Below, piece after piece: positions 1 to 42,310 of a DNA stretch of 64,000 nucleotides. The translations under genes were made by a program, and so were the position numbers. The notes under the pieces were generated by a model that saw nothing but the letters and a program-made list of their open reading frames with translations, was not told the origin of the DNA and searched no databases. Source of the DNA: an uncultured Prochlorococcus sp. (GTDB lineage: Bacteria; Cyanobacteriota; Cyanobacteriia; PCC-6307; Cyanobiaceae); NCBI GenBank assembly GCA_902520485.1, contig CABYNZ010000001.1, forward strand, positions 62,001 to 126,000, given 5' to 3'. Positions within the stretch are counted from its first letter, which is position 1. Each line of letters begins with the position of its first letter.

Positions 1-1216
1 AAATAAAAGAATGAGTAGATTGGGCCTCAAAACCTTTAAACCAAAATGTTTCAGGTTTTGAACAATCTTTTATATGATCAAAAAATATCTGCTCAGAAAA
101 ATTTGATAAAACTTTTTTTGCAAAATCAATTTCAAATACAATTCCCAAAAAATCAGATCCATAACCTTTTAAAATTACTTTTTTCTGAAAAACATTGAAA
201 TCACTTATTGAGGTAAAAGGAGTAGAAAATTCTTTAACAAATTCAAGATCTTTATATTGTTCCAATATTAAACTATTTTCTTTTTTTGCTATGCAAAATA
301 AATTTTTTATATTCCCTGAAAAGAATGTTATTCCAGTTACCCATTGTGGTGCTCCATATTCAATCAAATTTCTCTCTAATCTTTTCTTAATAAAAATATT
401 ATCAATTTCACTAACATCTAAAAACAATAAGTTCCACCATCCAGAACTATCTTCAGAACATACTAGAAGTGTTTCACTTATCCAATAGGGTTGAAAAAAA
501 GAAACGTTTTTCTTGGCATTTATCTGCTTATTTGAGAATTTTTTTATTTTTTGTATCTCTCCATCTAGATCTATTTGAGCAAAAAACAGATCATTTTTTT
601 CCCAGGGCATGTATGGAGAATCCCACTCTATCCAAGAAATTAATCTAGCAGAAGTATTAGAAGATAATTCTCCAGCAAAATTTTTAAATTTTTTTATTAG
701 ATGAATATCTTGTTTAGTTTTTTTTAAATTTAAAGAAAATAAATAATCTCTATTATTTATCTCGCAAATACCATACAAAAAAAATTTTTCAGAAATAACA
801 AATGAAGAATCGAAATTTCCATCAATTGATTTAGATAGTTGTATGGGTTCTTGAATAGAATCAAGGTATTTTTTTTGACTTCTATAATGCAACGCTGCCT
901 CTTTAAAAATTTGAAACCATAATGCCTTAGTAATCTGATCTATCCATATCAAATAAAAATTATCTTTAAAATTTATACATTTATAAGATTTACCGCCATA
1001 TCCATGAAAATTATTTTTAATATTAAATTTTTTACTTGTTAATTTCTGAGGAAACGCCTTTTTATCATTAAATGGTCTTGCGAATATGGCATTCTCATTT
1101 TGACCTTCTCCAACAACATCAATCCAAAAAATGGTATCCCTAATAATAGTTAATTCCTTGAAAGCATTTTTTTTAGATTCAGTTTGCCTAACTTTTAATT
1201 TATCATCATTACTCAT
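1..1216 (-). CDS. S9-family prolyl oligopeptidase/dipeptidyl aminopeptidase-like protein (N-terminal part, runs off window start)
   Basis: Continuous reverse-strand ORF from ATG at 1216 (MSNDDKLKVRQTESKKNAFKELTIIRDTIFWIDVVGEGQNENAIFARPF...), open at the window edge; beta-propeller-like composition. Confidence 0.65.
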   Translation of the reverse strand, partial: MSNDDKLKVRQTESKKNAFKELTIIRDTIFWIDVVGEGQNENAIFARPFNDKKAFPQKLTSKKFNIKNNFHGYGGKSYKCINFKDNFYLIWIDQITKALWFQIFKEAALHYRSQKKYLDSIQEPIQLSKSIDGNFDSSFVISEKFFLYGICEINNRDYLFSLNLKKTKQDIHLIKKFKNFAGELSSNTSARLISWIEWDSPYMPWEKNDLFFAQIDLDGEIQKIKKFSNKQINAKKNVSFFQPYWISETLLVCSEDSSGWWNLLFLDVSEIDNIFIKKRLERNLIEYGAPQWVTGITFFSGNIKNLFCIAKKENSLILEQYKDLEFVKEFSTPFTSISDFNVFQKKVILKGYGSDFLGIVFEIDFAKKVLSNFSEQIFFDHIKDCSKPETFWFKGFEAQSTHSFI

Positions 1217-1294
1217 TTAAAAAAAATATAAAGAAAGTAAATTAAAGTGCTAGTATTTTTATAGCTAAACTCTTAATTAAAAACTTTTTTTAAC

Positions 1295-1900
1295 GTGGCA
1301 AACCATTTTTCACAACTTGCAAAAAAGTCAAGAACAAATGGAAGCTCAGAAAAAATTGCAAAAGAACAAGCAGGTAAACCATCTCTGGACATTTTTAAAC
1401 TTGGTGATGATGTATTAAGACAAAATTCCAAAAGAATAACTAAGGTTGATGAATCAATTAGAAAACTTGCCAGAGAAATGCTTCAAAGCATGTATGCAGC
1501 TAAAGGAATTGGACTTGCCGCGCCTCAAATTGGTATCAACAAAGAGCTTCTTGTCATAGATGTAAATTTTGAAGATTCAGCAGCAGAACCTCTAATATTA
1601 ATCAATCCAGAAATTACAGACTTTGGAACAACCCTTAATTCATACGAAGAAGGCTGCTTGAGTATACCTGGCGTCTATTTGAATGTAGTAAGACCATCAA
1701 CTATAAAATTAAAATTTAGAGATGAAATGGGAAGACCACGTAAAATGAAAGCAGATGGACTTCTGGCGAGGTGTATTCAACACGAAATGGATCACTTAAA
1801 CGGAATATTATTTGTTGATAGAGTTACATCAAAAGATGATTTGAACAAAGAACTTATTAAGGAAGGGTTTAACGAAAAAGACGTAATTTCTATTGATTAA
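1295..1900 (+). CDS. def: peptide deformylase
   Basis: GIGLAAPQIG, EGCLSIPG and QHEMDHLNG motifs; GTG start. Confidence 0.97.
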   Translation: MANHFSQLAKKSRTNGSSEKIAKEQAGKPSLDIFKLGDDVLRQNSKRITKVDESIRKLAREMLQSMYAAKGIGLAAPQIGINKELLVIDVNFEDSAAEPLILINPEITDFGTTLNSYEEGCLSIPGVYLNVVRPSTIKLKFRDEMGRPRKMKADGLLARCIQHEMDHLNGILFVDRVTSKDDLNKELIKEGFNEKDVISID

Positions 1901-2246
1901 TCTAATGACTGAAACTACAATATTTCAAAAAATAATTAATGAAGAAATACCCTGCGATAAGCTTTATGAAGATGACTTTTGTATTGCTTTTAATGATATC
2001 CAAGCGCAAGCACCAGTTCATTTTTTAGTGATTCCAAAAAAGCCAATTGTAAGTTTATTGGATTGTATTGAAGAAGATACAAATTTATTGGGGCATTTAC
2101 TTTTTGTTGGTAGCAAAATAGCTAAATCAAAAAATTTAAATAATTGGAGAACAGTTATTAATACTGGAGCAGAATCGGGACAAACAGTTTTTCATTTACA
2201 TATTCATTTTTTATCTGGAAGAAAAATGAATTGGCCCCCAGGTTAA
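1893..2246 (+). CDS. HIT-family (histidine triad) protein
   Basis: HLHIHFLSGRKMNWPPG motif; likely start at the internal ATG (MTETTIFQK, 1905). Confidence 0.95.
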   Translation: MINLMTETTIFQKIINEEIPCDKLYEDDFCIAFNDIQAQAPVHFLVIPKKPIVSLLDCIEEDTNLLGHLLFVGSKIAKSKNLNNWRTVINTGAESGQTVFHLHIHFLSGRKMNWPPG

Positions 2247-2292
2247 AACTCTCGAAAGAAATGTTTATGGGTTATAAATAAGTAAAAACAAA

Positions 2293-2571
2293 ATGAATAC
2301 ACCAGATTCCTTAAATACAGAGTCTAAAAGCTTATTCAATTTAATATCAAAAAATTGGGAAGAGTTAGACGATTCACTCAAAACTAAGTTAATTAAAATT
2401 TGGAGAGTTTTAACGTATAAATGGCAATTACAAATTTTATTTAATCTACCTTTTCTTTTATGGTGGGTATTAGATAAATCTTTTCCAAAAGTTCATAAAT
2501 TTGATATGACAATTTTGAATTACTTAAATTTACCTGACTGGACACTTTCATTTATTGGTTTTGGTCAATAG
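2293..2571 (+). CDS. conserved small membrane-associated hypothetical protein
   Basis: 92-aa ORF in operon-like spacing with a hydrophobic C-terminal half. Confidence 0.7.
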   Translation: MNTPDSLNTESKSLFNLISKNWEELDDSLKTKLIKIWRVLTYKWQLQILFNLPFLLWWVLDKSFPKVHKFDMTILNYLNLPDWTLSFIGFGQ

Positions 2572-2609
2572 ACTGCTAAAAGTTATAATTTACCTTATAA
2601 ATTTGTCGA

Positions 2610-4595
2610 GTGATGAATAAAGCAGTTAATAATAAATCCAAAATACTATACCAATTACAAAAATTAAGGAAGTTATCTCAGCCATTCTTTCTTCCCATAG
2701 ATCAATGTAATGGGTTTCAATTCACATGGCTTTTGATTTCTCTTTTATTTTGCGTTGGTGGAGTAGTACTTATTGGTCTTACGGGAATAATAAGTTTTTT
2801 TGAAAGCTTTCAACCAATTTTTCTTGAAAAGTATTTCGGAGGTGTAGTAAGTACCGTCAATTCAATATGGACTGGTAGCTGGGGATTGCTTTTCTCTGCC
2901 TTATTTCTAATTGGATCAGGAAGCTTTTTTAGCTTAAGACGTCAATTAAAAAACCGTAGATGGTTACATTGGTTATTCCTTGCGATAATTGTATTAATGC
3001 TTTTAGCTGTAAACGGAATAAACGCAGGTATTGGATTCATTGCGAGAGATTTAACAAATGCTTTAGTAGAAAAACAAGAAGATGGGTTTTATCGGATATT
3101 GGGAATTTACGCTTGTTGTTTTGCTGTGGCTCTACCAATACGTGTTTCCCAAATATTTTTTACATATAAGTTAGGAATAATTTGGAGAGAATGGCTTTCA
3201 AAAAGTTTAGTCAAGGATTATATGACTAATAAAGCTTATTACCAATTAAATCCCAATGATGAAGAACAAACCGATGTAGATAATCCTGATCAAAGAATCA
3301 CAGATGATACCCGAGCTTTTACCGGGCAAAGTCTCTCTTTCACATTAGGTATTTTTGATGCTCTACTAACATTTTCACTTAATATTCTTATTTTATGGAG
3401 TATTAGTACAACACTTACTTTTTCTTTATTTGGTTACGCTGCATTTGCAACTTCTATCCTTTTGATTGCTGGAAAAAATCTTGTAAAGATTGACTTTGAT
3501 CAACTCAGATATGAAGCAGATTTTCGATATGGATTAGTACATATTAGAGATAATGCTGAATCAATAGCCTTTTACTCTGGGGAGAATCCTGAGCGAAGTG
3601 AAACTGAAAGACGCTTAGGGGAAGTGGTGAGAAACTTTAATTTACTGATTATATGGAGAGTAATAATAGACGTAATGAGAAGATCGATTAATTATGCTGG
3701 AAATTTCTTCCCATATTTAATAATGGCAATCCCTTACTTCAAAGGTGATATTGATTATGGACGCTTTATTCAGGCAAGCTTTGCATTTGGAATGGTTGAA
3801 GGTTCGTTATTTTTCATTGTTAATCAAATCGAAGAACTTGCAAAATTTACTGCTGGTATTGGCAGATTAGAAGGATTCCAATCAAAAGTTGAATCCATTA
3901 GTCAAACCAGCCCAACAAGCAATCAAAACGTTATTTCAGATTACCCCTCAATTCTTATCAATAATGCTGACCTTTGCCCACCAGGATCAAATAAAACAAT
4001 AATTAAAAATTTAAATTTGAGCATCGACAATAAACAATCACTTTTGGTTGTTGGACCATCTGGGTGCGGAAAAACGTCTTTACTAAGAATGATTAGTGGT
4101 TTATGGGAACCCGATCAAGGAGTAATTAAAAAACCAAAAATTGGGGAATTATTATTCATACCTCAAAAACCATACATGTTACTTGGTTCTTTAAGGGAAC
4201 AATTATGTTATCCCACAGAAGTTCAGAAGTTTAGCGACGAACATCTTACTTCTGTACTTCATGAAGTAAATTTAAAAACCTTAGTGGATCGATATCCTAA
4301 TCTTGATATCAAACAAGATTGGCCACGCATTCTTTCCTTAGGCGAGCAACAAAGATTGGCTTTTGCAAGACTGTTACTAAATTCTCCAAGATTTGCAGTA
4401 CTTGATGAAGCAACAAGTGCTTTAGATATTAACACTGAAAAAAAACTATATAGTTTATTAAAGGAACGAGAACTTTCTCTTATTAGTGTTGGACATAGAC
4501 CTAGCTTAAAAGATTTTCACGAGAATATTTTAGAATTAAATGGACAGGGGGACTGGAAATTATTGACTTCTGATAAGTATAATTTTAAAGATTAA
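2610..4595 (+). CDS. ABC transporter, fused permease and ATPase (SbmA/BacA/ABCD-like)
   Basis: N-terminal TM region, Walker A GPSGCGKT, LSLGEQQRLAFARLLL signature, DEATSALD. Confidence 0.92.
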   Translation: MMNKAVNNKSKILYQLQKLRKLSQPFFLPIDQCNGFQFTWLLISLLFCVGGVVLIGLTGIISFFESFQPIFLEKYFGGVVSTVNSIWTGSWGLLFSALFLIGSGSFFSLRRQLKNRRWLHWLFLAIIVLMLLAVNGINAGIGFIARDLTNALVEKQEDGFYRILGIYACCFAVALPIRVSQIFFTYKLGIIWREWLSKSLVKDYMTNKAYYQLNPNDEEQTDVDNPDQRITDDTRAFTGQSLSFTLGIFDALLTFSLNILILWSISTTLTFSLFGYAAFATSILLIAGKNLVKIDFDQLRYEADFRYGLVHIRDNAESIAFYSGENPERSETERRLGEVVRNFNLLIIWRVIIDVMRRSINYAGNFFPYLIMAIPYFKGDIDYGRFIQASFAFGMVEGSLFFIVNQIEELAKFTAGIGRLEGFQSKVESISQTSPTSNQNVISDYPSILINNADLCPPGSNKTIIKNLNLSIDNKQSLLVVGPSGCGKTSLLRMISGLWEPDQGVIKKPKIGELLFIPQKPYMLLGSLREQLCYPTEVQKFSDEHLTSVLHEVNLKTLVDRYPNLDIKQDWPRILSLGEQQRLAFARLLLNSPRFAVLDEATSALDINTEKKLYSLLKERELSLISVGHRPSLKDFHENILELNGQGDWKLLTSDKYNFKD

Positions 4596-4604
4596 AAAAA
4601 AAAA

Positions 4605-4880
4605 ATGAATTCTAAAGAAGAACAAACTAACTCAGAAGTAACTAATTTAGAGAACGAGAGTTTAATAGAACAGCAGAAAGATTCAAATTATATCAACGAA
4701 CAAATTGGAGACAATAAATTAGATGAAAAATCTATAGAAATGAAAGATGAATATAAATTCGGATGGAGTAGTTATTCTGAAATAACTAATGGAAGATTTG
4801 CAATGATTGGCTTCCTTGCAATAGTATTGATTGAATTATTTAGTAAACAGTCGTTTTTAAAATGGGCAGGACTCTTATAA
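4605..4880 (+). CDS. high-light-inducible protein (Hli/chlorophyll a/b-binding-like)
   Basis: C-terminal EITNGRFAMIGFLAIVLIELFS motif; Asn/Glu-rich N-terminal extension. Confidence 0.9.
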   Translation: MNSKEEQTNSEVTNLENESLIEQQKDSNYINEQIGDNKLDEKSIEMKDEYKFGWSSYSEITNGRFAMIGFLAIVLIELFSKQSFLKWAGLL

Positions 4881-5810
4881 TTAATCATCAAATCTAGAAC
4901 TGTTATCTCTTGGTTTCTTCTTGTTTGTTCCAACGTTATATCTACTATTTTGATTTTTTGAACTTGATCTTGCTGAAGAGCTTACTCTACGAGTCTCACG
5001 TGGTTTTTTGACTTGATTAGTATCTTTAAATGAAGCTTCTTCTACTGGAGCTTTAGAAGTTTGCTGCCTAATAGGGGAACTACTAGGTTTCTTTCTTAAT
5101 GGAGAAGAATCACCTGGACCAGAGCTATTATCTAGTCTAGAAACTGTACGATTCATTCTGGGTCTTGACCCTGTTTTAACTTCATCACGAGATAAATTTC
5201 TTCTCTCACCGAAGTTATTTTTTTCTGGTTGTTTACTATTTCTATCTGCAGAAGTCTGTCTTCTCCTTCTTATAGGTTCATCATTATCAAACTGACTTAT
5301 TTCCCTCGTAGATGGCCTACTTCTACTTGCTGCAGTAGAGGGTATAGCTCTTGAAACATTCCTCCTACGAGATCTCCCCTCCGTATAGTCTTCTTCAAAT
5401 TCATCTTCTTGAGGTTTAAATCTTCTGGATGGTCTTTCAGATTCTTCAAACCTATCATAATCATCATTAAATCGGCCTCTAGAATTTCTGGGAACATCAG
5501 AAATAGGATCATCATCAAAATAAGATGACCTTCTAGCTTGATCAGTAGCAACTCCCCTCAATCGCACACTTTCATATGCGAAAAAGACTGTAGTTCCTGC
5601 TAATAAAAACTGACCAAACTGAAGGATAGGATCTAACCTCCAACCTTGAAAAAATAATATTCCTCCGCACAAAAGTCCAATTGCTGCGAAGAAAACATCA
5701 TAATCCCTTGCCAAGGCAGGCTTAAAGGACCTCAAAAAATAAAGGCCTCCTCCACATACCGCGAGAACTATACCAACAATACTGGCCCAATTGAGACTAG
5801 CATTGACCAC
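4881..5810 (-). CDS. Ycf66-like membrane protein with long basic disordered tail
   Basis: N-terminal TM helices (NASLNWASIVGIVLAVCGGGLYFLRSFKPALARDYDVFFAAIGLLCGGILFFQGWRLDP) and an Arg/Ser-rich tail. Confidence 0.85.
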   Translation of the reverse strand: MVNASLNWASIVGIVLAVCGGGLYFLRSFKPALARDYDVFFAAIGLLCGGILFFQGWRLDPILQFGQFLLAGTTVFFAYESVRLRGVATDQARRSSYFDDDPISDVPRNSRGRFNDDYDRFEESERPSRRFKPQEDEFEEDYTEGRSRRRNVSRAIPSTAASRSRPSTREISQFDNDEPIRRRRQTSADRNSKQPEKNNFGERRNLSRDEVKTGSRPRMNRTVSRLDNSSGPGDSSPLRKKPSSSPIRQQTSKAPVEEASFKDTNQVKKPRETRRVSSSARSSSKNQNSRYNVGTNKKKPRDNSSRFDD

Positions 5811-5888
5811 ATTCTTTCTCCAAAAGTTTATTTTTTAAAGGGTTATTTATATTCCCTATATATAGTGTACTTAAAACTTCTACAAAAA

Positions 5889-6074
5889 CTAGCGTCTTCC
5901 AGTAGAAGTACGATCGAGGGAATCTTTCTGGCTGACAAAAATCAAAAATGCAGTGGCTGGAATAACGATAAGTAAGGCAGCTGCAATAAAACTACCTATC
6001 ATTCCAACTGCGGAATTATTTGCAACTTCAGCAGAAAAATCTGCTGCTAGTAATAAATTTGAGATTTGAAACAC
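5889..6074 (-). CDS. psbX: photosystem II protein PsbX
   Basis: 61-aa single-TM protein ([36 protein letters not shown]). Confidence 0.75.
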
Positions 6075-6155
6075 TTTTTAAATATTAAATTCTCAATTTA
6101 TAATACGAATTAAATACGTTTCAATGGGTTATTTATTAAGATGAATTAAATAATT

Positions 6156-6470
6156 GTGATCTCCTTGCTTTTAAATTCTCTTCAAATTTTAGATATTAGT
6201 TTAGGAATTTCTCTTTCATATCTAACTATAGTTTTTCTAATAAGATTAATACTTACTTGGTACCCAAAAATTGATTTAAGTAAAGGTTTGTGGTTATTGA
6301 TTTCAATACCATCAAGCTCTATTCTTAATTTAACAAGAAAACTAATTCCTCCTATTGGAGGCGTTGATGTTGGACCCGTAATTTGGATAGGAATTATAAG
6401 TTTTTTAAGAGAAATTTTAGTCGGTCAGCAAGGGCTTATAAAACTTGCATTGCATACAAATATTTCATAG
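6156..6470 (+). CDS. YggT-family (Ycf19-like) membrane protein
   Basis: RLILTWYPKIDLSKGLWLLISIPSSSILNLTRKLIPPIGGVDVGPVIWI; GTG start. Confidence 0.88.
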   Translation: MISLLLNSLQILDISLGISLSYLTIVFLIRLILTWYPKIDLSKGLWLLISIPSSSILNLTRKLIPPIGGVDVGPVIWIGIISFLREILVGQQGLIKLALHTNIS

Positions 6471-6488
6471 AAATTATTTAATTATTTC

Positions 6489-7838
6489 TCAGTAATTTTG
6501 CAATAATTCTTCTTCTACATATTTAGTATGTATTTTACCCTGCTTAAATTTAGATTTATTCAGTAAGGTTAAATGAAAGTTAATTGTCGTAGGAATACCA
6601 GTTACTGCACATTCATTTAAAGCCCTGTTCATACGTTTAATTGCAGTATTACGGTCTTTCCCCCAGACTATTAATTTACCAATTAATGAATCATAGAAAG
6701 GAGGTATTTCATAGCCCGTATAAACATGACTATCCACCCTTACACCAGGTCCACCAGGAGGAAGCCAGCCAGTAATTTTTCCAGGTGATGGTCGGAAATT
6801 GTGAGAAGGATCTTCAGCATTGATTCTACATTCAATAGCATGACCATTTAAATGGATATCATCCTGATTAAATTCCAAATTTGCTCCGCTTGCGATTTTA
6901 ATTTGCTCAGCTATTAAATCAACTCCTGTAACCATTTCAGTAACAGGATGTTCAACTTGAATCCTAGTATTCATCTCCATAAAATAAAAATTATCATCCT
7001 CATCGACTAAAAATTCAACTGTCCCAGCTCCTTCGTAGCCGATACTTTTTGCAGCAGCAATAGCTGCGTTCCCCATTTTTTTTCTTAGCTCAGTGTTAAT
7101 TGCTGGACTAGGAGACTCTTCTAGCAACTTCTGATGTCTTCTTTGAACTGAACAATCTCGCTCTCCTAAATGAACAACATTACCCGACCTATCGGCCAAA
7201 ATTTGAATTTCTACATGTCTTGGCTTCTTTATAAATTTCTCCATATATAATCCATCATTACCAAAAGCTGCTTCTGCTTCTCCTTGAGCTGCTTTAAACA
7301 TTTTCTCGAGATTATTAGAGTTATCAACCAACCTCATACCTCTTCCACCTCCTCCAGCAGTCGCTTTAATAATTACCGGATAGCCAATATCATCTGCCAA
7401 TTTATAAGCCTCATCAACATTTGATAATAAGCCTTTGCTACCAGGTACCGTTGGAACTCCAACTGCTTCCATAGTTTCTTTAGCTGTAGATTTATCTCCC
7501 ATAGATCTAATAGCTTTAGGAGATGGGCCAATAAAAACTATGCCGTGATCATTACACATCTCAGCAAATTTGTCATTTTCCGCAAGAAATCCATAACCAG
7601 GATGAATAGCATCAACTCCTCTAGATGTAGCAGCAGCAAGTATATTTGGAATATTTAAATAACTCTTATTACTTAATGAATCTCCAACGCAAACCGCCTC
7701 ATCAGCAAGCTGTACATGCAATGCTTTTTTATCTACAGTGCTAAAAACTGCAACGGTTGCAATACCTAGTTCTCTACAACTTCTGACAATTCGTAAAGCT
7801 ATTTCTCCACGATTAGCAATTAAAACTTTTTCAACCAT
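6489..7838 (-). CDS. accC: acetyl-CoA carboxylase, biotin carboxylase subunit
   Basis: Full-length biotin carboxylase ([44 protein letters not shown]). Confidence 0.98.
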
Positions 7839-8064
7839 TGTGAAAATTAAATTGAAGCAATGAAAATGACTTAAAATAAAAAATTATTTGCCAAAGTAAT
7901 TAACAAAATTTTTTTAATGATCAGAGGACATTTTTTACAATACAACCTAGAACGTTATATATGTATAAATATTTGTTTTATGCAATAGAAAAATTATTCA
8001 TCATATTCAAAAAAAATCTTTTCGAACCACATTGTTATTTCAGCTAATAATGTATGATATTTTT

Positions 8065-8099
8065 AAGGTTTAAGCATCCCCCGGATGCTGAAAACCCTT
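8065..8099. other. hairpin-forming near-palindrome directly upstream of tRNA-Leu
   Basis: AGCATCC-CCC-GGATGCT perfect 7-bp stem (8073-8089), extending imperfectly to AAGGTTTA... / ...GAAAACCCTT. Confidence 0.6.
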
Positions 8100-8100
8100 T

Positions 8101-8182
8101 GCGGACGTGGCGGAATTGGTAGACGCGCACGTCTAAGGAGCGTGTGGCTTTGGCCTTGCGAGTTCAAGTCTCGCCGTCCGCA
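8101..8182 (+). tRNA. tRNA-Leu, anticodon AAG by stem-loop pairing
   Basis: Acceptor GCGGACG/CGTCCGC; D-loop GGCGGAATTGGTAGACGC; class II variable arm; T arm GCGAG-TTCAAGT-CTCGC. Anticodon stem CACGT/GCGTG with loop CTAAGGA gives anticodon AAG at 8135-8137. Confidence 0.93.
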
Positions 8183-8186
8183 TTTA

Positions 8187-9473
8187 ATGTATTCTGGTTT
8201 AACTGCAATGAAAAAAAAATCAGTTGCAGTAGTTATAATTTCCAATGGTCCTGGTGAATTAACTACCTGGGTAAATCCTGTAGTAGATGAGCTAAACAAA
8301 ATAAATCAATCACTATGTAATGACGATAAACAAGATTTCACTCTTAGGTTAGTCCTTGTTCCTTGCCCAAATGCCACTGGTAAAGAATTTTTAGTTGCAA
8401 ATTCATGGAATAAATTCGAATATATTGCAAAACCCAAAAGTTTTTGGAAATTATTATTAAAGCCACATTCTTTTGCTGATTGGCCAAAAAAAGGAGTAGT
8501 TATTTTCCTTGGTGGGGATCAATTTTGGAGCATTTTATTAGCTAAAAGATTAGGTTATTTAAATATCACATATGCTGAATGGGTTTCACGATGGCCTAAA
8601 TGGACCAATAAAATTGCTGCTATGAATGTAAAAGTAAAAGAGTTAATACCTAAAAGATATAAATATAAATGTACAGTCATTGGCGATTTGATGGCAGATA
8701 TCAAACTTAATAGCGAAATATCATTTAAAAATAACGAAAAACACTACATTGCATTGTTGCCTGGTTCTAAGAAAGCAAAGCTTTCTATTGGAATTCCTTT
8801 CTTCTTAGAAGTTGCAGATCATATCGCTAAAGAAAATCAAAATATAAATTTTATAATTCCCATTGCTCCAACTACTGATAAAAGTGAATATTTATTTTTT
8901 CAAAGCAACAAAAATCCAATTGCTAAATATTACTCATCAAAAATCAAAACAATTAAAAAATTCAAAGATTCTCGTTTTGATTATGTAATTGAAACATCAA
9001 AAAAAACTAAGATTTATCTAATCAAGAAAAATCCTTGCTATGAAATATTAAAAGAATGTGATCTTGCAATTACAACTGTAGGAGCAAATACTGCAGAATT
9101 AGCAGCAATTAGTCTTCCAATGTTAGTTGTCCTGCCTACTCAACATTTAAATATGATGAACGCTTGGGATGGTATTTTTGGAGTAATTGGAAAAATTTCA
9201 TTCATAAATAGATTCCTAACTTTTATAATTAAAAATTTCTATTTTAAAAAAAAGAAGTTTTTTGCTTGGCCAAATATTAAAGCTAAAAGAATGATTGTCC
9301 CTGAAAGGATAGGGAATATTTCGACGATAAAAATTGCAAAAGAAGTATTATTTCTTATTAAAAATAGAGATCAATTAGAAAGTATTAAGTGTAATCTAAA
9401 CAAAGAAAGAGGCGATAAAGGTGCTGCAAAAAAACTTGCTTCTATAATTATTAACTCTATAAAAAAACTTTAA
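8187..9473 (+). CDS. lipid-A-disaccharide synthase-like glycosyltransferase-related protein
   Basis: NGPGELTTWVNPVVDEL..., LLPGSKKAKLSIGIPFFLEVADHI, TTVGANTAELAAISLPMLVVLPTQ; the supplied ORF start at 8085 lies in the tRNA leader, so ATG 8187 or 8208 is preferred. Confidence 0.85.
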   Translation: MYSGLTAMKKKSVAVVIISNGPGELTTWVNPVVDELNKINQSLCNDDKQDFTLRLVLVPCPNATGKEFLVANSWNKFEYIAKPKSFWKLLLKPHSFADWPKKGVVIFLGGDQFWSILLAKRLGYLNITYAEWVSRWPKWTNKIAAMNVKVKELIPKRYKYKCTVIGDLMADIKLNSEISFKNNEKHYIALLPGSKKAKLSIGIPFFLEVADHIAKENQNINFIIPIAPTTDKSEYLFFQSNKNPIAKYYSSKIKTIKKFKDSRFDYVIETSKKTKIYLIKKNPCYEILKECDLAITTVGANTAELAAISLPMLVVLPTQHLNMMNAWDGIFGVIGKISFINRFLTFIIKNFYFKKKKFFAWPNIKAKRMIVPERIGNISTIKIAKEVLFLIKNRDQLESIKCNLNKERGDKGAAKKLASIIINSIKKL

Positions 9474-18731: not shown

Positions 18732-19403
18732 TTGTTCATTACCGTTTGCGGACAAAAAGGGGGGGTAGCCAAGACCTGTACAAGTATTCACCTTGCTAGT
18801 GTTTGGCATTCTGAAGGTAAAAAAGTTTGCATAGTCGATGCCGACAAGAATAGATCTGCTTTAGCATACGCATCAAGAGGCAATCTTCCATTTCCAGTTT
18901 TCCCCGTCAGTTCAGCTGCTAAAGCATCAAGATCATCAGAAATTGTAATAACTGATGGCCAGGCTAGCAGTGATCAAGAAGAACTTAAACACTTAGCGTA
19001 TGGTTCAGATTTAGTTATCTTACCTACAACTGCAAAAGCAAGATCGGTAGAATTAACTGTTGAACTAGCTAATTTATTAAGCAACTTAAAAGTTAACCAT
19101 GCTGTAGTAATAGTAAAAGTTGATTTTAGACAGCAAAAAGCAGCGCAACAAGCCAAAGCAGCTCTAGAAAATTTTGGTTTATATGTTTTTGATACATTTA
19201 TCCCCTTACTTTCAGCATTTGATAAAGCCGAAGCCTCGGGCAATGCTGTATTTGAAGCTGTAGACGATTTAGGTAGATCAGATCCTCGTCGAATGACGGG
19301 CTGGTCTGCTTATTGTTCAATTGCCTCACAAATTCCATGCCTGATTTCGAAGCCCTCATCCGACACCAACAACTTAAACAACCAACAACCAATCAGCGCT
19401 TAA
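18732..19403 (+). CDS. ParA-family ATPase (orphan, no parB adjacent)
   Basis: TTG start; deviant Walker A QKGGVAKTCTSIHLA, VCIVDADKNRSAL, LVILPTTAKARSVELT. Confidence 0.9.
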   Translation: MFITVCGQKGGVAKTCTSIHLASVWHSEGKKVCIVDADKNRSALAYASRGNLPFPVFPVSSAAKASRSSEIVITDGQASSDQEELKHLAYGSDLVILPTTAKARSVELTVELANLLSNLKVNHAVVIVKVDFRQQKAAQQAKAALENFGLYVFDTFIPLLSAFDKAEASGNAVFEAVDDLGRSDPRRMTGWSAYCSIASQIPCLISKPSSDTNNLNNQQPISA

Positions 19404-19579
19404 AAGTAGTTGATTCTTCTAATTTTGAAGGAGAAAAGAACGAAGAAGCAAAGATTAGACAATCTGGATTATTAGTTAATTTTTTTGGAGGTTTTATAGG
19501 CTCTGTAATTGGAACTTTAACAATACTTTTTCTCTACATAAATGAATATCTTCCATTAGATTTACTAAAAATTAAGTAG
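19337..19579 (+). CDS. small membrane-anchored hypothetical protein overlapping parA 3' end
   Basis: MPDFEALIRHQQLKQ...LLVNFFGGFIGSVIGTLTILFLYINEYLPLDLLKIK; ATG 19337 preferred over 19313. Confidence 0.65.
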   Translation: MPDFEALIRHQQLKQPTTNQRLKVVDSSNFEGEKNEEAKIRQSGLLVNFFGGFIGSVIGTLTILFLYINEYLPLDLLKIK

Positions 19580-19592
19580 TATATTCACTATT
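19574..19592 (+). repeat. left att-like direct repeat (duplicated argJ 3' end)
   Basis: AAGTAGTATATTCACTATT; reverse complement with the adjacent TTA reads AAT AGT GAA TAT ACT ACT TAA = NSEYTT-stop. Confidence 0.8.
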
Positions 19593-19616
19593 GATACATA
19601 TATATCCCCAAATCCA

Positions 19617-19733
19617 TTGGTATCACTGGGTTCTTACTTCTAAAATTAGTGTTATATAGGTGTTACAAACCTTTTTTCACAGGGTCAAACCATTTGGTAT
19701 CACTGAACTAGTGTTATAAAGGTGCTACAACAA
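19617..19733 (+). repeat. two tandem units of arm-type-like repeats
   Basis: TTGGTATCACT at 19617 and 19694 (inverted motif); AGTGTTATATA/GGTGTTACAAA at 19648-19669; AGTGTTATAAA/GGTGCTACAAC at 19710-19731. Confidence 0.8.
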
Positions 19734-19779
19734 CATGAAATTAGATATTATTTAGCGTCAGTTATCTTTATTTAATTAA

Positions 19780-20013
19780 TTATTCTTTGTTAGCAACATC
19801 TTCTAATAATGTTGAATCAAATAATTCAAGAATCCTACCTTCTTTGTTAACTAATCTATGGGCAGTATGTGTTGCAAAATATTTATTTACTCCATGATTG
19901 ATTGCTGTCGAATAATCATAAAAAGTATCTAATCTTTTCCATTCACCCTTAATAGTCAACATTTCCAGGTGGACTTTATTTTTTTCAAAAAATTCTTTAT
20001 CAGGTACTTTCAT
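19780..20013 (-). CDS. hypothetical protein (77 aa)
   Basis: ORF with normal composition; start overlaps the upstream ORF stop (ATGA). Confidence 0.6.
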   Translation of the reverse strand: MKVPDKEFFEKNKVHLEMLTIKGEWKRLDTFYDYSTAINHGVNKYFATHTAHRLVNKEGRILELFDSTLLEDVANKE

Positions 20014-20162
20014 TTCTTAAATAAATCTTGAATGACATATATATCCTCTGCATTTGGATATTTCTGTTGAAAAACGCTTATCGCATTAGTAGGCGAAATA
20101 GCAAATAAATTTATTTTAATCCTGTAAGAGTCAATTAAACCTGATATCAAATATTTTTTCAT
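20010..20162 (-). CDS. hypothetical small protein (50 aa), absent from supplied track
   Basis: MKKYLISGLIDSYRIKINLFAISPTNAISVFQQKYPNAEDIYVIQDLFKK; stop overlaps the start of the 77-aa ORF. Confidence 0.6.
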   Translation of the reverse strand: MKKYLISGLIDSYRIKINLFAISPTNAISVFQQKYPNAEDIYVIQDLFKK

Positions 20163-20291
20163 TATGAATATGATCGCTTTTTTTAAGAGTAGTAAAAATA
20201 ATTTTTTGGAGCATTAAATATTTTGATATACCCGGATAGGAAGAAAAAAGTATTTAAATCGGTTAAATCTAAATAAGTCAATTTTTATATT

Positions 20292-20657
20292 ATGGACCGA
20301 ATAAATGCAATGCCACATGAAATAGAACTGGAATTAAAAAAGTTCGAACTTAAAATTTCCAAACTAAACAAAGAAGAGATGTTTAAAGAACTAATGCTTC
20401 TTAAATTTGACTCTGAAAACAATTTTTATTTTATAAAGAAGTATTTAAGCAAACATGGAATGAGAATATCAAGACAAATTATTCAAAGGCATAATACAGA
20501 TCATGTAGTGATCGCTTTTGGATATTTATCCGAAAAAATGCATCAATTATTTAAAAAGAATATTTTCCCTGAGGTTAAACTTGAATCTCAAAGATTAATC
20601 GATCTAATAATAAATAATCGATCTACTAAAAAAGTAAGAATCCATGAAAAAAATTAG
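20292..20657 (+). CDS. hypothetical protein (121 aa)
   Basis: ORF overlapping the start of the TPR gene by 14 nt. Confidence 0.6.
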   Translation: MDRINAMPHEIELELKKFELKISKLNKEEMFKELMLLKFDSENNFYFIKKYLSKHGMRISRQIIQRHNTDHVVIAFGYLSEKMHQLFKKNIFPEVKLESQRLIDLIINNRSTKKVRIHEKN

Positions 20658-21390
20658 ACCAATTTTTCATATATCTTTCTTAATCTTTTTACTTTCGGTG
20701 CCATATGAAATATTTGCAACAAATAATAAGAATGTCCTGGATTTAGAAAGATCAAGAGAACTACTTTTAGATGGTTATATACAAAGTGACTTTGATAATC
20801 ATCAAATAGCAATTGAATACTTTACTGAAGCAATCAGACTAAATCCAAATAATCTTTTTGCTTTCTTAAATAGAGCATATTCCAAGCATGAAATAAAAGA
20901 CATTGCAGGTGCTTGGGATGACTTAAATATTGCACTAGAAATTGATCCTAATAATGGCATTGCTTTTTATAATCGTGCAATTGTGAATTGGAAACTTGGT
21001 CATCAATTAAGTGCCATTAAAGATTATTCAAAAGCAATCAATAAAAATATCAAATTAAAAAATGCATACGCTATTAGAGGAATTCTTAAATCAAATATTG
21101 GAGATGCTGAAGGCGCATGTGCTGATTGGCAAAAAGCAAGTGAAAACAAAAATGAAAGAGCAACTTTATGGGTTCAAGAAAACTGTTTACCAAATATTTC
21201 TGAAGAGTTTAAAAAGAAAACAGAAAATAAAGTACTTATGGCCAATGCCAGAAGGAAATATTTTTCCGGCGAAATTAGAGAATCATGTAATTATTATGAG
21301 CAAGCAAAAATCAATGGTTATAAAGCAAGTAACTTTCGGGACAAATTAAAACTTATGATTATTACTGATCCAATGTGCTTTGTCTTTTAG
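20644..21390 (+). CDS. TPR-repeat protein with N-terminal signal sequence
   Basis: TPR units (AIEYFTEAIRLNPNNLFAFLNRAYSKHEIKDIAGAWDDLNIALEIDPNNGIAFYNRA...) after a hydrophobic N-terminus. Confidence 0.85.
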   Translation: MKKIRPIFHISFLIFLLSVPYEIFATNNKNVLDLERSRELLLDGYIQSDFDNHQIAIEYFTEAIRLNPNNLFAFLNRAYSKHEIKDIAGAWDDLNIALEIDPNNGIAFYNRAIVNWKLGHQLSAIKDYSKAINKNIKLKNAYAIRGILKSNIGDAEGACADWQKASENKNERATLWVQENCLPNISEEFKKKTENKVLMANARRKYFSGEIRESCNYYEQAKINGYKASNFRDKLKLMIITDPMCFVF

Positions 21391-21399
21391 TCCCACAAG

Positions 21400-24300
21400 A
21401 TGGCAACCTTTGATGAATTCTTTGCATCTTTAGATTTAGATGAAGAAGGAAACGTTAAAACAGATAAGACAGAAAAAGGACTCCCTTTCGAACAGATTTT
21501 CGTTAAGTGGTTTTTACTTAATGATCCGATTTGGAGTTCTAAAGTAGATCGTTTTTTAGAAACTGGACAAGATTTAGGAATAGATTTAATTTTTAGAGAT
21601 AAAGAGGGCAACAAATGGGCAGTCCAATCAAAAGGTTACTCGCCAAGTACGTACATAACCAAAAGTGATATTGATAGTTTTATCTCTGATTCTCCAACTT
21701 CAGAATTTTATGGAAGACTCTTGATAGCGAGTACTGATCGCATTGGAACAAATGCTGACAAAACACTTAAAAAAAACAAGGTTGTACGATTTCTATTAAA
21801 AGATTTTCATACTTCATCAATAAATTTTCCCTCAAACATAAAAGAACTTTCAAAAGTTAAAAAAAGAAAACCTTTTTCAAGAAGAAATCATCAAATAAAA
21901 GCAGTTAATGAGGTCTTAGAAAAAATAAACGCTGTTAACAGGGGTCAAGTTCTTATGGCATGCGGAACTGGTAAAACATTAACCTCATTGTGGATTAAAG
22001 AGGATTTAAAAGCGAAGCAAGTATTAGTCCTAGTTCCATCATTAAACCTGCTTAGTCAGACTTTAAGCGCATGGCGAAATAATCTTTCTGATCCATTTGA
22101 ATGGCAATGTGTTTGCTCTGACAAAACAGTCCATAAAAAGAAAAAAAATGATTTAGATGAGGATTGGATAAATGATCCTTCTGAATTAGGAATACCCGTT
22201 ACTAGCGATAGTGAAGAAATAAAAAAATTCCTTTTGAAAAAAGAATCCAAAGTCTTGTTTTCTACCTATCAATCTTCGGAACTTATTGTAGAAGTGCAAA
22301 AAGATATGCAAGTTCCTAACTTTGATATCATCTTTGCTGATGAAGCACATAAGTGTGCTGGGAAAATTTCTAAAGATTTTAGTTATGTTTTAGATAATGA
22401 AAAAATCAGAGGAAATAAAAGATTATTCTTTACTGCGACTCCGCGAGTTTTATCCAAAAAGATTAAAACACAAGCAATTAAAACAGAAACTGAAATTGCA
22501 TCAATGGATGACACATCAATCTTTGGAGATGTTCTTCACGTACTTAAATTTTCTGATGCAATTAAACAAAAAATATTATCAGACTATCAAGTTGTAGTAA
22601 TTGGTATAGATGACGTTTTGATTTCAGAAAAAATTAAAAATCGTGATTTTATCAAAACCAGTAAAGGTGAGATTATTGATGCAGAATCACTAGCACTTCA
22701 AATTGCACTAGCAAAAGGAATTAAAAAATATAACTTACGCAGAATAATTAATTTCCATTCGCAAATCGCAGGTGCACAATTATTCCGAGATACTTTTGAA
22801 AAAACAATAAATGAAATGCCCTTAAATGAAAAACCAATGGGGAAAATTAGTTGTGACTATGTAGAAGGAAGAATGACTACTGATAAACGTAATGAAAAAA
22901 TCAGGGATCTAGAGAAACTTGAAGCAAATGAGAGAAAAATTCTTGGTAACGCAAAATGTTTATCAGAAGGGGTTGATGTACCTTCGTTAGACGGTATTAC
23001 TTTTGTAGATCCTAAAAGCAGCGAAGTAGATATAATTCAAGCAGTAGGAAGGGTAATTCGCAAAGGAAATAAAGGAAAAAATGGCACTATTTTAATACCA
23101 ATTTACCTGCAAGACTTGAAAGATGTAGAAGACCAAGTTTTGGCAAGTAGATTTAGTGACGTTTGGACGGTCATCCAAGCACTTAAATGTCATGATGACG
23201 TTCTTAAAGAAAATATTGATAATTTAAGAATTTCTTACGGAAAAAGAAAAATCAAAAGAGAGGGTTATAAAGGTTTAAAACTTCACACAGAACTACCCGC
23301 CGAGAGAATAAGTGTAAATTTCATTAATTCGATTGAGACTTTATTAATTGAAAATACATCAGATGCTTGGTTTGAAAAGTATGGTGAATTAGAAGACTTC
23401 TTTTATGAGAATGGACACTCAAATATTGGTCGTTCTAACGAGAGATTAGGCAGATGGGTAGAAATTCAACGTAGCAACTATAAAAAAGGAAAATTATCCA
23501 AAGAAAGATTTGAATTACTAAGTAAATTAAATTTTGTTTGGGATATACCTGAGCATCAATGGAATGAGAACTATCAAGAACTAAAGATATTTTTTAAACA
23601 AAATGGACACTCAAATCCACCTACCAATACCCAACTCGGGAAATGGGTAAGTGACTTAAGATTACGATTCAAAAAGGGGAAATTATCCAAAGAACGTATT
23701 GAATTACTAAAAGAATTAAATTTTGCTTGGGATATACTTGAGCATCAATGGAATGAGAACTATCAAGAACTAAAGATATTTTTCCAGAAAAATAACAACT
23801 CATATCCAAGTCAAAAAACTGCTCTTGGTAATTGGGTTGGAATTCAAAGGAAATTATATAAACAAAATAAATTATCTACAGAACGTATTGAATTACTTAA
23901 TAAATTAAATTTTGTTTGGGATATACCTGAGCAACAATGGAATGAGAACTATCAAGAACTAAAGAAATTTTTTAAACAAAATGGGCATTCAAGTCCACCT
24001 ACCAATACCCAACTTGGGAAATGGGTTGTAGTTCAAAGGAAAGTATATAAAGACAATAAATTATCTACAGAACGTATTGAATTACTTAATAAATTAAGTT
24101 TTGTTTGGGATATACTTGAGCATAAATGGAATGAGAACTATCAAGAACTAAAGAAATTTTTTAGACAAAATGGACATTCAAATGCTCCTAAAGACAACCC
24201 TTTATCTAGTTGGAGTACCCAACAAAGAAAAAACTATAGAGAGAACAAACTATCTAATGATCAAATTGAATTATTAAACCAAATTAATTTTGTTTGGGAA

Positions 24301-24696
24301 AATTTATTAGATAATAAATGGGATGAGAAATATGAAGAATTAAAGATATTTTTTAAACAAAATGGACATTCAAGTCCTCCTAACATTCATCCTCTAAGCA
24401 GATGGGTTGGTAAACAAAGAACATTCTTCAAAAAAAACAAATTATCTAATAAAAGAATTGAATTATTAAATCAACTTAATTTTGTTTGGGATTTATTAGA
24501 TGATCAATGGCATAACAAATACAGAGAATTTATATTATTTCTTAAAGAGAATAGCAATTCATATCCAAACAGTAGAAACACACTTGGAAGATGGGTTGAA
24601 GTTCAACGAAGAAATTATAAAAAAGGAAAATTATCTTCCAAATATATAAAATTATTGAACGAAATAAACTTTATTTGGTCAATTAGTTCTGTTTAA
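21400..24696 (+). CDS. nuclease-helicase: N-terminal Mrr/PD-(D/E)xK-like domain, SF2 helicase, seven C-terminal HA repeats
   Basis: GQDLGIDLIFRDKEGNKWAVQSKGY (D...QxK); LMACGTGKT; DEAH; FFTATPRV; QAVGRVIRKG; seven ~63-aa WNENYQELKxFFxQNGHSxPPxxxxLGxWVxxQRxxYKxxKLSxERIELLNxLNFVWD units. Confidence 0.92.
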   Translation: MATFDEFFASLDLDEEGNVKTDKTEKGLPFEQIFVKWFLLNDPIWSSKVDRFLETGQDLGIDLIFRDKEGNKWAVQSKGYSPSTYITKSDIDSFISDSPTSEFYGRLLIASTDRIGTNADKTLKKNKVVRFLLKDFHTSSINFPSNIKELSKVKKRKPFSRRNHQIKAVNEVLEKINAVNRGQVLMACGTGKTLTSLWIKEDLKAKQVLVLVPSLNLLSQTLSAWRNNLSDPFEWQCVCSDKTVHKKKKNDLDEDWINDPSELGIPVTSDSEEIKKFLLKKESKVLFSTYQSSELIVEVQKDMQVPNFDIIFADEAHKCAGKISKDFSYVLDNEKIRGNKRLFFTATPRVLSKKIKTQAIKTETEIASMDDTSIFGDVLHVLKFSDAIKQKILSDYQVVVIGIDDVLISEKIKNRDFIKTSKGEIIDAESLALQIALAKGIKKYNLRRIINFHSQIAGAQLFRDTFEKTINEMPLNEKPMGKISCDYVEGRMTTDKRNEKIRDLEKLEANERKILGNAKCLSEGVDVPSLDGITFVDPKSSEVDIIQAVGRVIRKGNKGKNGTILIPIYLQDLKDVEDQVLASRFSDVWTVIQALKCHDDVLKENIDNLRISYGKRKIKREGYKGLKLHTELPAERISVNFINSIETLLIENTSDAWFEKYGELEDFFYENGHSNIGRSNERLGRWVEIQRSNYKKGKLSKERFELLSKLNFVWDIPEHQWNENYQELKIFFKQNGHSNPPTNTQLGKWVSDLRLRFKKGKLSKERIELLKELNFAWDILEHQWNENYQELKIFFQKNNNSYPSQKTALGNWVGIQRKLYKQNKLSTERIELLNKLNFVWDIPEQQWNENYQELKKFFKQNGHSSPPTNTQLGKWVVVQRKVYKDNKLSTERIELLNKLSFVWDILEHKWNENYQELKKFFRQNGHSNAPKDNPLSSWSTQQRKNYRENKLSNDQIELLNQINFVWENLLDNKWDEKYEELKIFFKQNGHSSPPNIHPLSRWVGKQRTFFKKNKLSNKRIELLNQLNFVWDLLDDQWHNKYREFILFLKENSNSYPNSRNTLGRWVEVQRRNYKKGKLSSKYIKLLNEINFIWSISSV
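23365..24690 (+). repeat. seven tandem helicase-associated (HA, PF03457-like) coding repeats, 189-192 bp period
   Basis: Repeat starts at 23365, 23557, 23746, 23935, 24124, 24316 and 24505; near-identical DNA TGGAATGAGAACTATCAAGAACTAAAGA in units 2-5. Confidence 0.92.
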
Positions 24697-24732
24697 TTTT
24701 TGCATATATTTTTTATTTTTATGTGGAAATCT

Positions 24733-24754
24733 AGTGGTACATTGGTGGTATATG
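24733..24754 (+). repeat. right-end arm-type-like repeat pair
   Basis: AGTGGTACATT/GGTGGTATATG, same 11-bp period and RGTGNTAYA consensus as the left end. Confidence 0.65.
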
Positions 24755-24799
24755 AGTTCTGTATTCTCCGTAATCAATTGCTATGACTGCAGTTTGGGG

Positions 24800-26038
24800 T
24801 CAAGTAGTATATTCGCTATTTATTTCAACATATTTTTTAGAAAGATCGCACCCCCAAGCTGTACCTTTCGATTCGCCAGAATTTAGATTAATCATAATTT
24901 TTACAATATCATCTACTAAATATCTACCTTTCATTCTGGACTTAATATAGTCTGTGACTTTTTGTGGATCATATTTATTTAACTTGCCTTTTTCCAAAAT
25001 CTGGGCGTTTCCAATACATAAGTCAACGTCATTAAAATTAAATTTAACTCCAGAATTACCCGCAGCAGAAATGATTCGTCCCCAATTCGGATCACAACCA
25101 TGTATCGCAGTTTTTACCAAGGAAGAATTACAGATAGATTTCGCGAGAATAATTGCATCATCTGTATTTTTTGCTCCTTGAACCAAAACTTCTAATAAAC
25201 AATTTGCTCCCTCTCCATCCCTTGCAATATTTTTTGCCAAGTTCTGACATACAATATCAATCCCTTGTTGGATAATTGGAAAAAACCTTTTTTCAATTTT
25301 CTCTCCTGCATTTATTCCAACAAAAGAATCATTTGTGCTTGTCTCTCCATCAACTGATATTGCATTAAAAGATTTTTGAACCGCAATAGCAATCATTTTG
25401 TCCCATTCTTCTTTTTGAATACCCGCATCACAGGTTAGAAAAGCAAGCATTGTAGCCATGTTGGGGTAAATCATTCCTGAACCTTTTGCAAATCCTGCTA
25501 TTTTTATTTTTCTACCTTGAATAATCGTCTCTATTGACACTTTTTTCAAAGTCAAATCAGTAGTTAAAATTGCTTCTGCTGCATTTGCAAAATTATTAGC
25601 CTTTAAATCACTAACTAAATTCGGTAAATTTTTTACTAAATCATTTATTTGTATTGGAACACCAATTACACCAGTTGAGCACATTAAAACTTCTTCTTCT
25701 TTTATACCTAAAAGTTCCGCAATCTTTCCTGTAGCAATTTGAAAATGTTGAATGCCAAGATTTCCCGTACATGCATTTGCTTGACCAGAATTAATTAATA
25801 TTGCTCTTACAAAACCTGAAGTTGTTTTAATCCTTTCCTCACAAATATCCACACAAGAAGCTCGAACAATTGATTGAGTAAACATCCCACTAAAAATACT
25901 TCCTTCTGGAGCGAGTATTAGTGCTAAATCTTTTTTATTAGAAGCTTTTAAACCAGCAGATATCCCAGCAAAAAGAAACCCCTTGGGTGTTACCTTACTG
26001 TCATCAACAAACGACCAATTGGAATCTAACTGGCTCAA
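24800..26038 (-). CDS. argJ: bifunctional ornithine acetyltransferase/N-acetylglutamate synthase
   Basis: INSGQANACTG, MCSTGVIG, AKGSGMIYPNMATMLAFLTCDA. Confidence 0.98.
   Translation of the reverse strand: MSQLDSNWSFVDDSKVTPKGFLFAGISAGLKASNKKDLALILAPEGSIFSGMFTQSIVRASCVDICEERIKTTSGFVRAILINSGQANACTGNLGIQHFQIATGKIAELLGIKEEEVLMCSTGVIGVPIQINDLVKNLPNLVSDLKANNFANAAEAILTTDLTLKKVSIETIIQGRKIKIAGFAKGSGMIYPNMATMLAFLTCDAGIQKEEWDKMIAIAVQKSFNAISVDGETSTNDSFVGINAGEKIEKRFFPIIQQGIDIVCQNLAKNIARDGEGANCLLEVLVQGAKNTDDAIILAKSICNSSLVKTAIHGCDPNWGRIISAAGNSGVKFNFNDVDLCIGNAQILEKGKLNKYDPQKVTDYIKSRMKGRYLVDDIVKIMINLNSGESKGTAWGCDLSKKYVEINSEYTT
24802..24820 (+). repeat. right att-like direct repeat (inside argJ 3' end)
   Basis: AAGTAGTATATTCGCTATT, 18/19 match to 19574-19592. 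Confidence 0.8.
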
Positions 26039-41596: not shown

Positions 41597-42310
41597 TTAA
41601 GTTATTGATAACTGCCAACGCTTTTTTAAATAATTACAGTATTCACATTTTAAGGAAGGTTTAGGGAAAACATCCGAACGTAATAAATTAACCGTATCAA
41701 TTATCTTATTTTCTACCCATGAAGTAGAACAATCTAATTTAATTAGATTTACATCAAAATTTAATTGGTTATTAAATAACTCTTCATTTTTCTTCCCATT
41801 GAAATATAAAAGATAAGCTTCTTTAGCCACTTGAAAACCGTTTTTTTTAAATAGCCACTGATACATTTCTAATTGTCTCTTATAAGCTTTTGCATATTCG
41901 TATTTATTAAAAGTCTCAGACCAATCAAAATTATTTCTAGATGTTGCTTTTACATCAACGATAATAAGATCACCATTTTTTTTCTGCCAAATATCATCCA
42001 CAGCTCCACCAAAATCATAGTTATGTTCAACTGACATATATCTTATCCCTTGGAAATTACTCCTCCAACGTTCTAAATCTTTGTGTTGGAAAGGTACAGC
42101 ATCAATTCCATATTCAATAAATAAAGGGTGCGGCTCCTGAATTTTTCTATAATAATCAAATTCATTTTTACACAAATTATCTACAGCTATATTTAAAGTA
42201 AATGGTAACGATGGCGGTTTTATTTGATATTTTTTATCAAGTACACAACATCTTGGACAACTAAGATATTTCTCAACAGTAGATCGACTTAGTTTAATAA
42301 TCTCACTCAT
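41597..42310 (-). CDS. PD-(D/E)xK superfamily nuclease, RecB/Cas4-like
   Basis: GGAVDDIWQKKNGDLIIVDVKATS, QLEMYQWLF, Cys-flanked (CPRCC N-terminal, CEYC C-terminal). Confidence 0.85.
   Translation of the reverse strand: MSEIIKLSRSTVEKYLSCPRCCVLDKKYQIKPPSLPFTLNIAVDNLCKNEFDYYRKIQEPHPLFIEYGIDAVPFQHKDLERWRSNFQGIRYMSVEHNYDFGGAVDDIWQKKNGDLIIVDVKATSRNNFDWSETFNKYEYAKAYKRQLEMYQWLFKKNGFQVAKEAYLLYFNGKKNEELFNNQLNFDVNLIKLDCSTSWVENKIIDTVNLLRSDVFPKPSLKCEYCNYLKKRWQLSIT

Follow-up and report, generated by a model that had tools for sequence, protein, structure and literature searches.

A putative non-autonomous integrative cassette at the 3' end of argJ in Prochlorococcus

The argJ gene of an uncultured Prochlorococcus sp. 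is separated from a convergent 88-aa ORF and a ParA/MinD-family gene by a 5.2-kb block that encodes a nuclease-helicase, a TPR-repeat protein and three small proteins, and that is bounded by two copies of a 19-bp direct repeat. We undertook a comparative analysis of this locus, starting from a stretch of 64,000 nucleotides (contig CABYNZ010000001.1), hereafter called the window. The features of the locus are as follows.

18732..19403, plus strand: ParA/MinD-family gene of the chromosomal flank (Pfam CbiA)
19313..19579, plus strand: 88-aa ORF, convergent with argJ in empty genomes, where the stops overlap by 8 bp; no Pfam match
19574..19592, minus strand: distal att repeat, AATAGTGAATATACTACTT on this strand, joined to the chromosome on the 88-aa-ORF side
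19579..19586, minus strand: distal copy of the 8-bp core GAATATAC, presumed strand-exchange region, from the position-wise consensus switch
19587..24806, no strand: integrated element of 5.2 kb between the two 8-bp cores, from the aligned junctions and the empty site of G049 (locus L037) with one repeat copy
19593..19670 (first base approximate), no strand: left arm of the element, from the arm listing and z-scores against 94 other elements
19780..20013, minus strand: 77-aa protein, recurring near the left end of sibling elements
20010..20162, minus strand: 50-aa protein, overlapping the next gene by 4 bp and recurring near the left end of sibling elements
20292..20657, plus strand: 121-aa protein of no convincing family (sub-threshold Pfam match), with 95-96% identical copies in L086 and L087
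20644..21390, plus strand: 248-aa TPR-repeat protein (Pfam TPR), with 92-95% identical copies in the sibling elements L086 and L087
21400..24696, plus strand: 1098-aa protein with Mrr-type nuclease, SF2 helicase and seven HA domains (Pfam Mrr_cat_2, ResIII, Helicase_C, HA)
24720..24806 (first base approximate), no strand: right arm of the element, from the arm listing and z-scores
24800..26038, minus strand: argJ, the target gene, with its final two codons and stop contributed by the element
24802..24820, minus strand: argJ-side att repeat, AATAGCGAATATACTACTT on this strand, within the argJ 3' end
24807..24814, minus strand: argJ-side copy of the 8-bp core GAATATAC, from the junction consensus

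The direct repeats were first noticed in a sequence-only reading of the window, and they are present exactly as reported there, AAGTAGTATATTCACTATT at 19574-19592 and AAGTAGTATATTCGCTATT at 24802-24820. When up to three mismatches are allowed, the window contains no other match (shuffled sequence predicts 0.10), and the best remaining matches across the full assembly of this genome carry 3 mismatches and are about as numerous as those of a reversed control pattern. On the minus strand the distal copy recreates the C-terminus of argJ, as had been proposed, reading NSEYTT followed by TAA, and argJ itself ends in NSEYTT followed by TGA; the original argJ end is kept in the distal repeat. The 8-bp overlap of convergent stops expected without the block is seen in the empty site of the nearest relative, between argJ and the 88-aa ORF. 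This ORF is the "parA-linked gene" of the earlier reading, and its convergent position is confirmed; its protein has no Pfam match. tRNA or tmRNA genes occur at just two places of the window, 8100 and 17025, and ARAGORN calls the first, at 8100-8183, as a tRNA-Leu with anticodon AAG.

Residues 21-615 of the 1098-aa protein match the PADLOC type IIG and I restriction models, the methylase part being missing, and its domains indicate that it is probably a restriction-like, anti-phage defence protein. Related helicases are found in the argJ elements of G001, G230 and G167 and also elsewhere in other genomes, and a scan of public genomes with the window helicase returned one relative, in Prochlorococcus AG-402-A04. 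Two further relatives, at G022:C1:37973-39763 and G050:C1:44996-46792, lie outside the argJ site, about 23-24 kb upstream of argJ. The block had been credited with four small ORFans, of which only three credible ORFs (121, 77 and 50 aa) are left; a BotR-like identity of the 121-aa protein was dismissed as noise (NCBIfam E 0.008, far below cut-off).

Of 149 relatives, argJ was located in 135; the stretch downstream was taken from same-genus genomes, and 116 same-genus loci, the window included, were readable on both sides. The site is empty in 55 of these loci and occupied by 0.15-9.3 kb of varied cargo in the other 61, a ratio that describes the sample and gives no estimate for the genus, because the loci were drawn partly with a pattern requiring the att site. 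The sequence-only reading had looked to other Prochlorococcus genomes for empty sites and for different cargo between the same repeats, and both are found. The nearest relative, G049, is empty with a single repeat copy, and its flanks are identical to those of the window at 99.8% on the argJ side (1200 bp) and at 99.5% on the side of the 88-aa ORF, parA and an aldo-keto gene (1880 bp). The joined flanks of G049 read ...AATAGCGAATATACTACTTAATTTTTAG...; the window diverges from them after ACTACTT on the argJ side and rejoins them from GAATATAC on at the distal side. By this comparison, the window block was inserted precisely and site-specifically, with direct att repeats at its ends and an empty counterpart in a relative.

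The junctions of the other genomes lie at this position too. On the argJ side the sequence matches the empty consensus through GAATATAC and then drops from 100% to 34% (35 empty sites and 41 argJ-side junctions compared), and the distal junctions (n=38) turn chromosomal across AATAGCGAATATAC. An imperfect inverted repeat, AAATAG and CTACTT, brackets the core, and this is the typical appearance of a tyrosine recombinase crossover region. Because the junction consensus switches around GAATATAC, the crossover is predicted to lie in or adjoining this 8-bp core. The proposal that the insertion rebuilds its target gene agrees with the junction consensus, which puts the crossover at the argJ 3' end with the C-terminus restored by the element.

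Many occupied intervals are tandem arrays. A weight matrix built from the known junctions detected 34 further core sites inside the intervals, all on one strand and scoring at least 19 (up to 36.8), against best scores of 9.0 in shuffled and 10.6 in antisense controls. These cores divide the 61 intervals into 95 elements with a median length of 1656 bp (range 148-9043), and at least two elements of at least 500 bp are present in 25 of the 61 intervals, counts from which true sites with lower scores may escape, for example in L080, whose four YadA-type genes are distributed over two called elements. The commonest cargo of the relatives, with 44 gene copies in 37 elements and 28 intervals, is a gene with a signal-peptide-like start and a YadA anchor domain, variable in its front half and conserved in the rear, which points towards argJ in all 44 copies. 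An SRA-HNH nuclease, a cytosine methylase and zinc-finger proteins are also found, and these gene families allow the inference that the cargo has a role in avoiding phages. Cassettes in L095, L096, L099 and L217 encode just the C-terminal domain of a DnaB-type helicase. L097 and L192 (G042) show an inversion of the segment that runs from argJ to a counterpart of window gene 41597-42310; one of its breakpoints is inside the argJ array, and the second lies past this counterpart.

The arms adjoining the cores are common to elements with unrelated genes, and right-arm similarity tracks left-arm similarity (r=0.41; 500 permutations gave 0.08 at most). A near-identical copy of the left arm of the window element occurs in elements with different cargo; moreover, TTTGGGG in its right arm (24793-24799) is the inverse of CCCCAAA in its left arm (19606-19612). 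The arm motif GCAATNGATT was considered as a universal binding site and rejected: it is enriched in arms, but with occurrences in 14 of 87 right arms and 23 of 87 left arms it is class-specific. Arm classes obtained by average linkage are coarse and depend on the chosen threshold. By z-scores calculated from a simple block shuffle, the window arms resemble moderately those of the integrase-bearing element of L053 in G047 (3.8 and 4.1), against 0.7 and -0.2 for the integrase element of L110 in G068, and they come far closer to integrase-less siblings, among them L086 and L198, than to the L053 element.

No recombinase is found among the genes of the window block in the ORF list or in PF00589 and Pfam searches, in agreement with the earlier statement that none is recognisable. 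The assembly of the window genome, which is 81% complete and could lack an integrase, has its sole tyrosine recombinase at contig C28. Three argJ intervals do contain a tyrosine recombinase, in G047 (527 aa), G068 (457 aa) and G232 (58% identical to that of G068), two of these elements being known in part only, from incomplete assemblies. In G068 and G232 the recombinase gene starts beside the argJ-side core and reads away from argJ; both elements also encode proteins with a serine-resolvase domain, and that of G232 a ParB-domain methylase. The remaining 58 of the 61 occupied intervals have no match to the argJ or flv1 integrases; PF00589 was searched in 52 genomes, and an unrelated recombinase is possible in genomes outside these 52. 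The element was called non-autonomous in the sequence-only reading, and the rarity of integrases at occupied sites speaks for it. Its mobilisation by a tyrosine recombinase, also claimed, is upheld insofar as three argJ elements carry one and the window arms resemble those of one of them; the catalysis is presumed.

A second protein-coding insertion site was observed at flv1, where integrases of 489-509 aa, distant relatives of those at argJ, lie just behind the gene in L182, L183, L184, L185 and L187. Downstream in L182, L183 and L187, part of the flv1 3' end (about TCACTAYTAR) is repeated, and the counterpart of this site in the window is near 36467.

Elements without an integrase are shared between hosts. 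Over 1756 bp, one of them has 98.3% identity between two hosts with flanks of 93.8% and 94.3% identity, and a second shows 89.6% identity against flanks of 76% and 80%. These comparisons support lateral transfer of integrase-less elements.

We consider it likely that the window block is a non-autonomous integrative cassette at a protein-coding hotspot, moved by a recombinase from related elements, the last step being the inferred one. This reading is favoured because empty and occupied sites coexist, with the nearest relative empty; because the consensus switches sharply at the core on both sides; because 34 internal cores share one orientation and arms are common to unrelated cargo; because three argJ elements carry a recombinase and the window arms resemble those of L053; and because a 98.3% identical element lies in flanks of about 94%, and two genomes rated complete (G230 and G195) have occupied argJ sites with a protein of about 389 aa as their only PF00589 match. 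A tyrosine recombinase would exchange strands in or adjoining GAATATAC. Integration, as the comparison shows, sets the element between argJ and the gene convergent with it and exchanges the final two codons and the stop of argJ for an equivalent end. The recombinase would most likely act in trans from a related element at the same site, or an array neighbour would carry the cassette along in cis. Since every insertion leaves att copies on both sides, further elements could add on and build the tandem arrays that are observed, in an order of events that we can only propose.

Immobility after entry would be the closest alternative: the block could be a decayed remnant that lost its own integrase and is now fixed, as the many elements without integrase and the stubs of 150-270 bp in some arrays might suggest. 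We regard this as unlikely, since the arms and core of the window element are intact and integrase-less siblings have moved between hosts; moreover, the nearest relative is empty at a divergence of 0.2-0.5%, which argues for a recent insertion event.

A different source of the enzyme is also conceivable. The PF00589 protein of about 389 aa occurs in most genomes searched (for example at L145:5176-6345), and among NCBIfam models it comes closest to XerA/integron-integrase, with a score far below cut-off; a chromosomal recombinase of this kind could act on the argJ cassettes in trans as a resident, host-run cassette system, and it is the sole PF00589 protein of G230 and G195, whose argJ sites are occupied. 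It is, however, equally present in G049, whose argJ site is empty, dedicated integrases exist within argJ elements, and arm classes follow integrase type, a relation drawn from three integrase elements. This explanation is accordingly rather improbable.

The arrays share with integrons their small one- or two-gene cassettes, the uniform orientation of their sites and a commonest cargo gene that always has the same direction, so that one might imagine folded, single-stranded cassette sites taken up by an attI-like site within argJ. Folding of the joined arms gave a mean z of -0.51, with 13% below -2, and this mean is no better than that of empty sites (-0.69), which argues against an attC-like hairpin. 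In most genomes the array lacks an adjoining integrase gene. Cassettes longer than 1.5 kb are numerous, and some cassettes hold several genes. Membership among integrons was rejected for the window element, which lacks both the attC-like fold and an adjacent integron integrase, and the integron reading is very improbable. Equally remote is a chance repeat, or variation produced by homologous recombination between the flanks alone: occupancy changes at least 34 times on the flank tree of 112 tips (29-44 with shuffled labels, mean 37.6), an almost chance-like scatter, and the flanks are conserved enough for homologous exchange, but junctions at the same core in all genomes and end arms common to unrelated cargo refute this origin of the insertions, and flanking homology may still spread the empty and occupied states.

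The element had also been called satellite-like. In the sense of a phage satellite this is unsupported: the window cargo has no packaging or capsid family in Pfam, NCBIfam or PADLOC, and viral contigs scanned for the att pattern, the G068 argJ integrase and the helicase yielded no relative; a viral origin of the element was rejected on these scans.

All evidence on the argJ elements is comparative. It offers, tentatively, a broader picture in which the argJ 3' end might be a genus-wide docking site, where sets of small integrase-less cassettes with class-specific arms and one or two genes, chiefly encoding surface proteins with a YadA anchor and restriction-type enzymes, are exchanged by transiently present recombinases acting in trans; a streamlined cyanobacterium could then share an exchangeable pool of phage-facing genes with no mobilising enzyme kept. 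The argJ locus provides a precisely located, testable integration site in a protein-coding gene of Prochlorococcus, a cyanobacterial genus among the most abundant in the ocean, and both the empty and the filled allele occur in close relatives. It illustrates how genomes of very small size acquire or shed surface-protein and defence-type genes one at a time. For a test of trans-mobilisation, direct candidates are provided by the arm classes and the three elements that bear an integrase.

A literature search including argJ brought up no account of the gene as an integration site; the original description of tycheposons lay outside this search, and prior notice is possible. According to a second-hand account, Prochlorococcus tycheposons occupy seven tRNA genes and span 4-200 kb (PMC10872708). 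As far as this account goes, they share with the argJ elements the genus, a tyrosine recombinase, variable cargo and island remodelling. The window element differs in its target, argJ being a protein-coding site, and in having no recombinase in its block; the recombinases were compared indirectly, and the argJ integrases give no meaningful alignment with the tRNA-linked recombinases of 409-432 aa sampled, which may be tycheposon enzymes. In the additive flexible genomic islands of Methylophilaceae, repeats of tRNA-Lys mark successive variable insertions by copies of the gene's 3' end (PMC10872708), much as recurring gene-3'-end copies mark successive insertions of variable content in the argJ arrays; their target is a tRNA gene and no arm classes or matching integrases are described there (PMC10872708), whereas the argJ site has both.

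Dehalococcoides ssrA islands lie in tandem at the 3' end of one gene and carry direct repeats of it of about 20 bp; many have no integration module and were proposed to be mobilised with their neighbours (PMC3146451). They are like the argJ elements in the tandem arrangement, the gene-3'-end repeats and the frequent lack of an integration module, and differ in the tmRNA target, the serine recombinase and the reductive dehalogenase cargo, against argJ, a tyrosine recombinase and much smaller elements. The CIMEs of streptococci are att-flanked, have no integration genes, form tandem accretions and derive from decayed conjugative or mobilizable elements (PMC5704250). The argJ elements are likewise att-flanked, with no integration or transfer genes in the window block; unlike CIMEs, those examined show no conjugation gene, and they have class-specific arms and small ORFs in common. 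In architecture, the argJ elements resemble both the Dehalococcoides ssrA islands and the streptococcal CIMEs.
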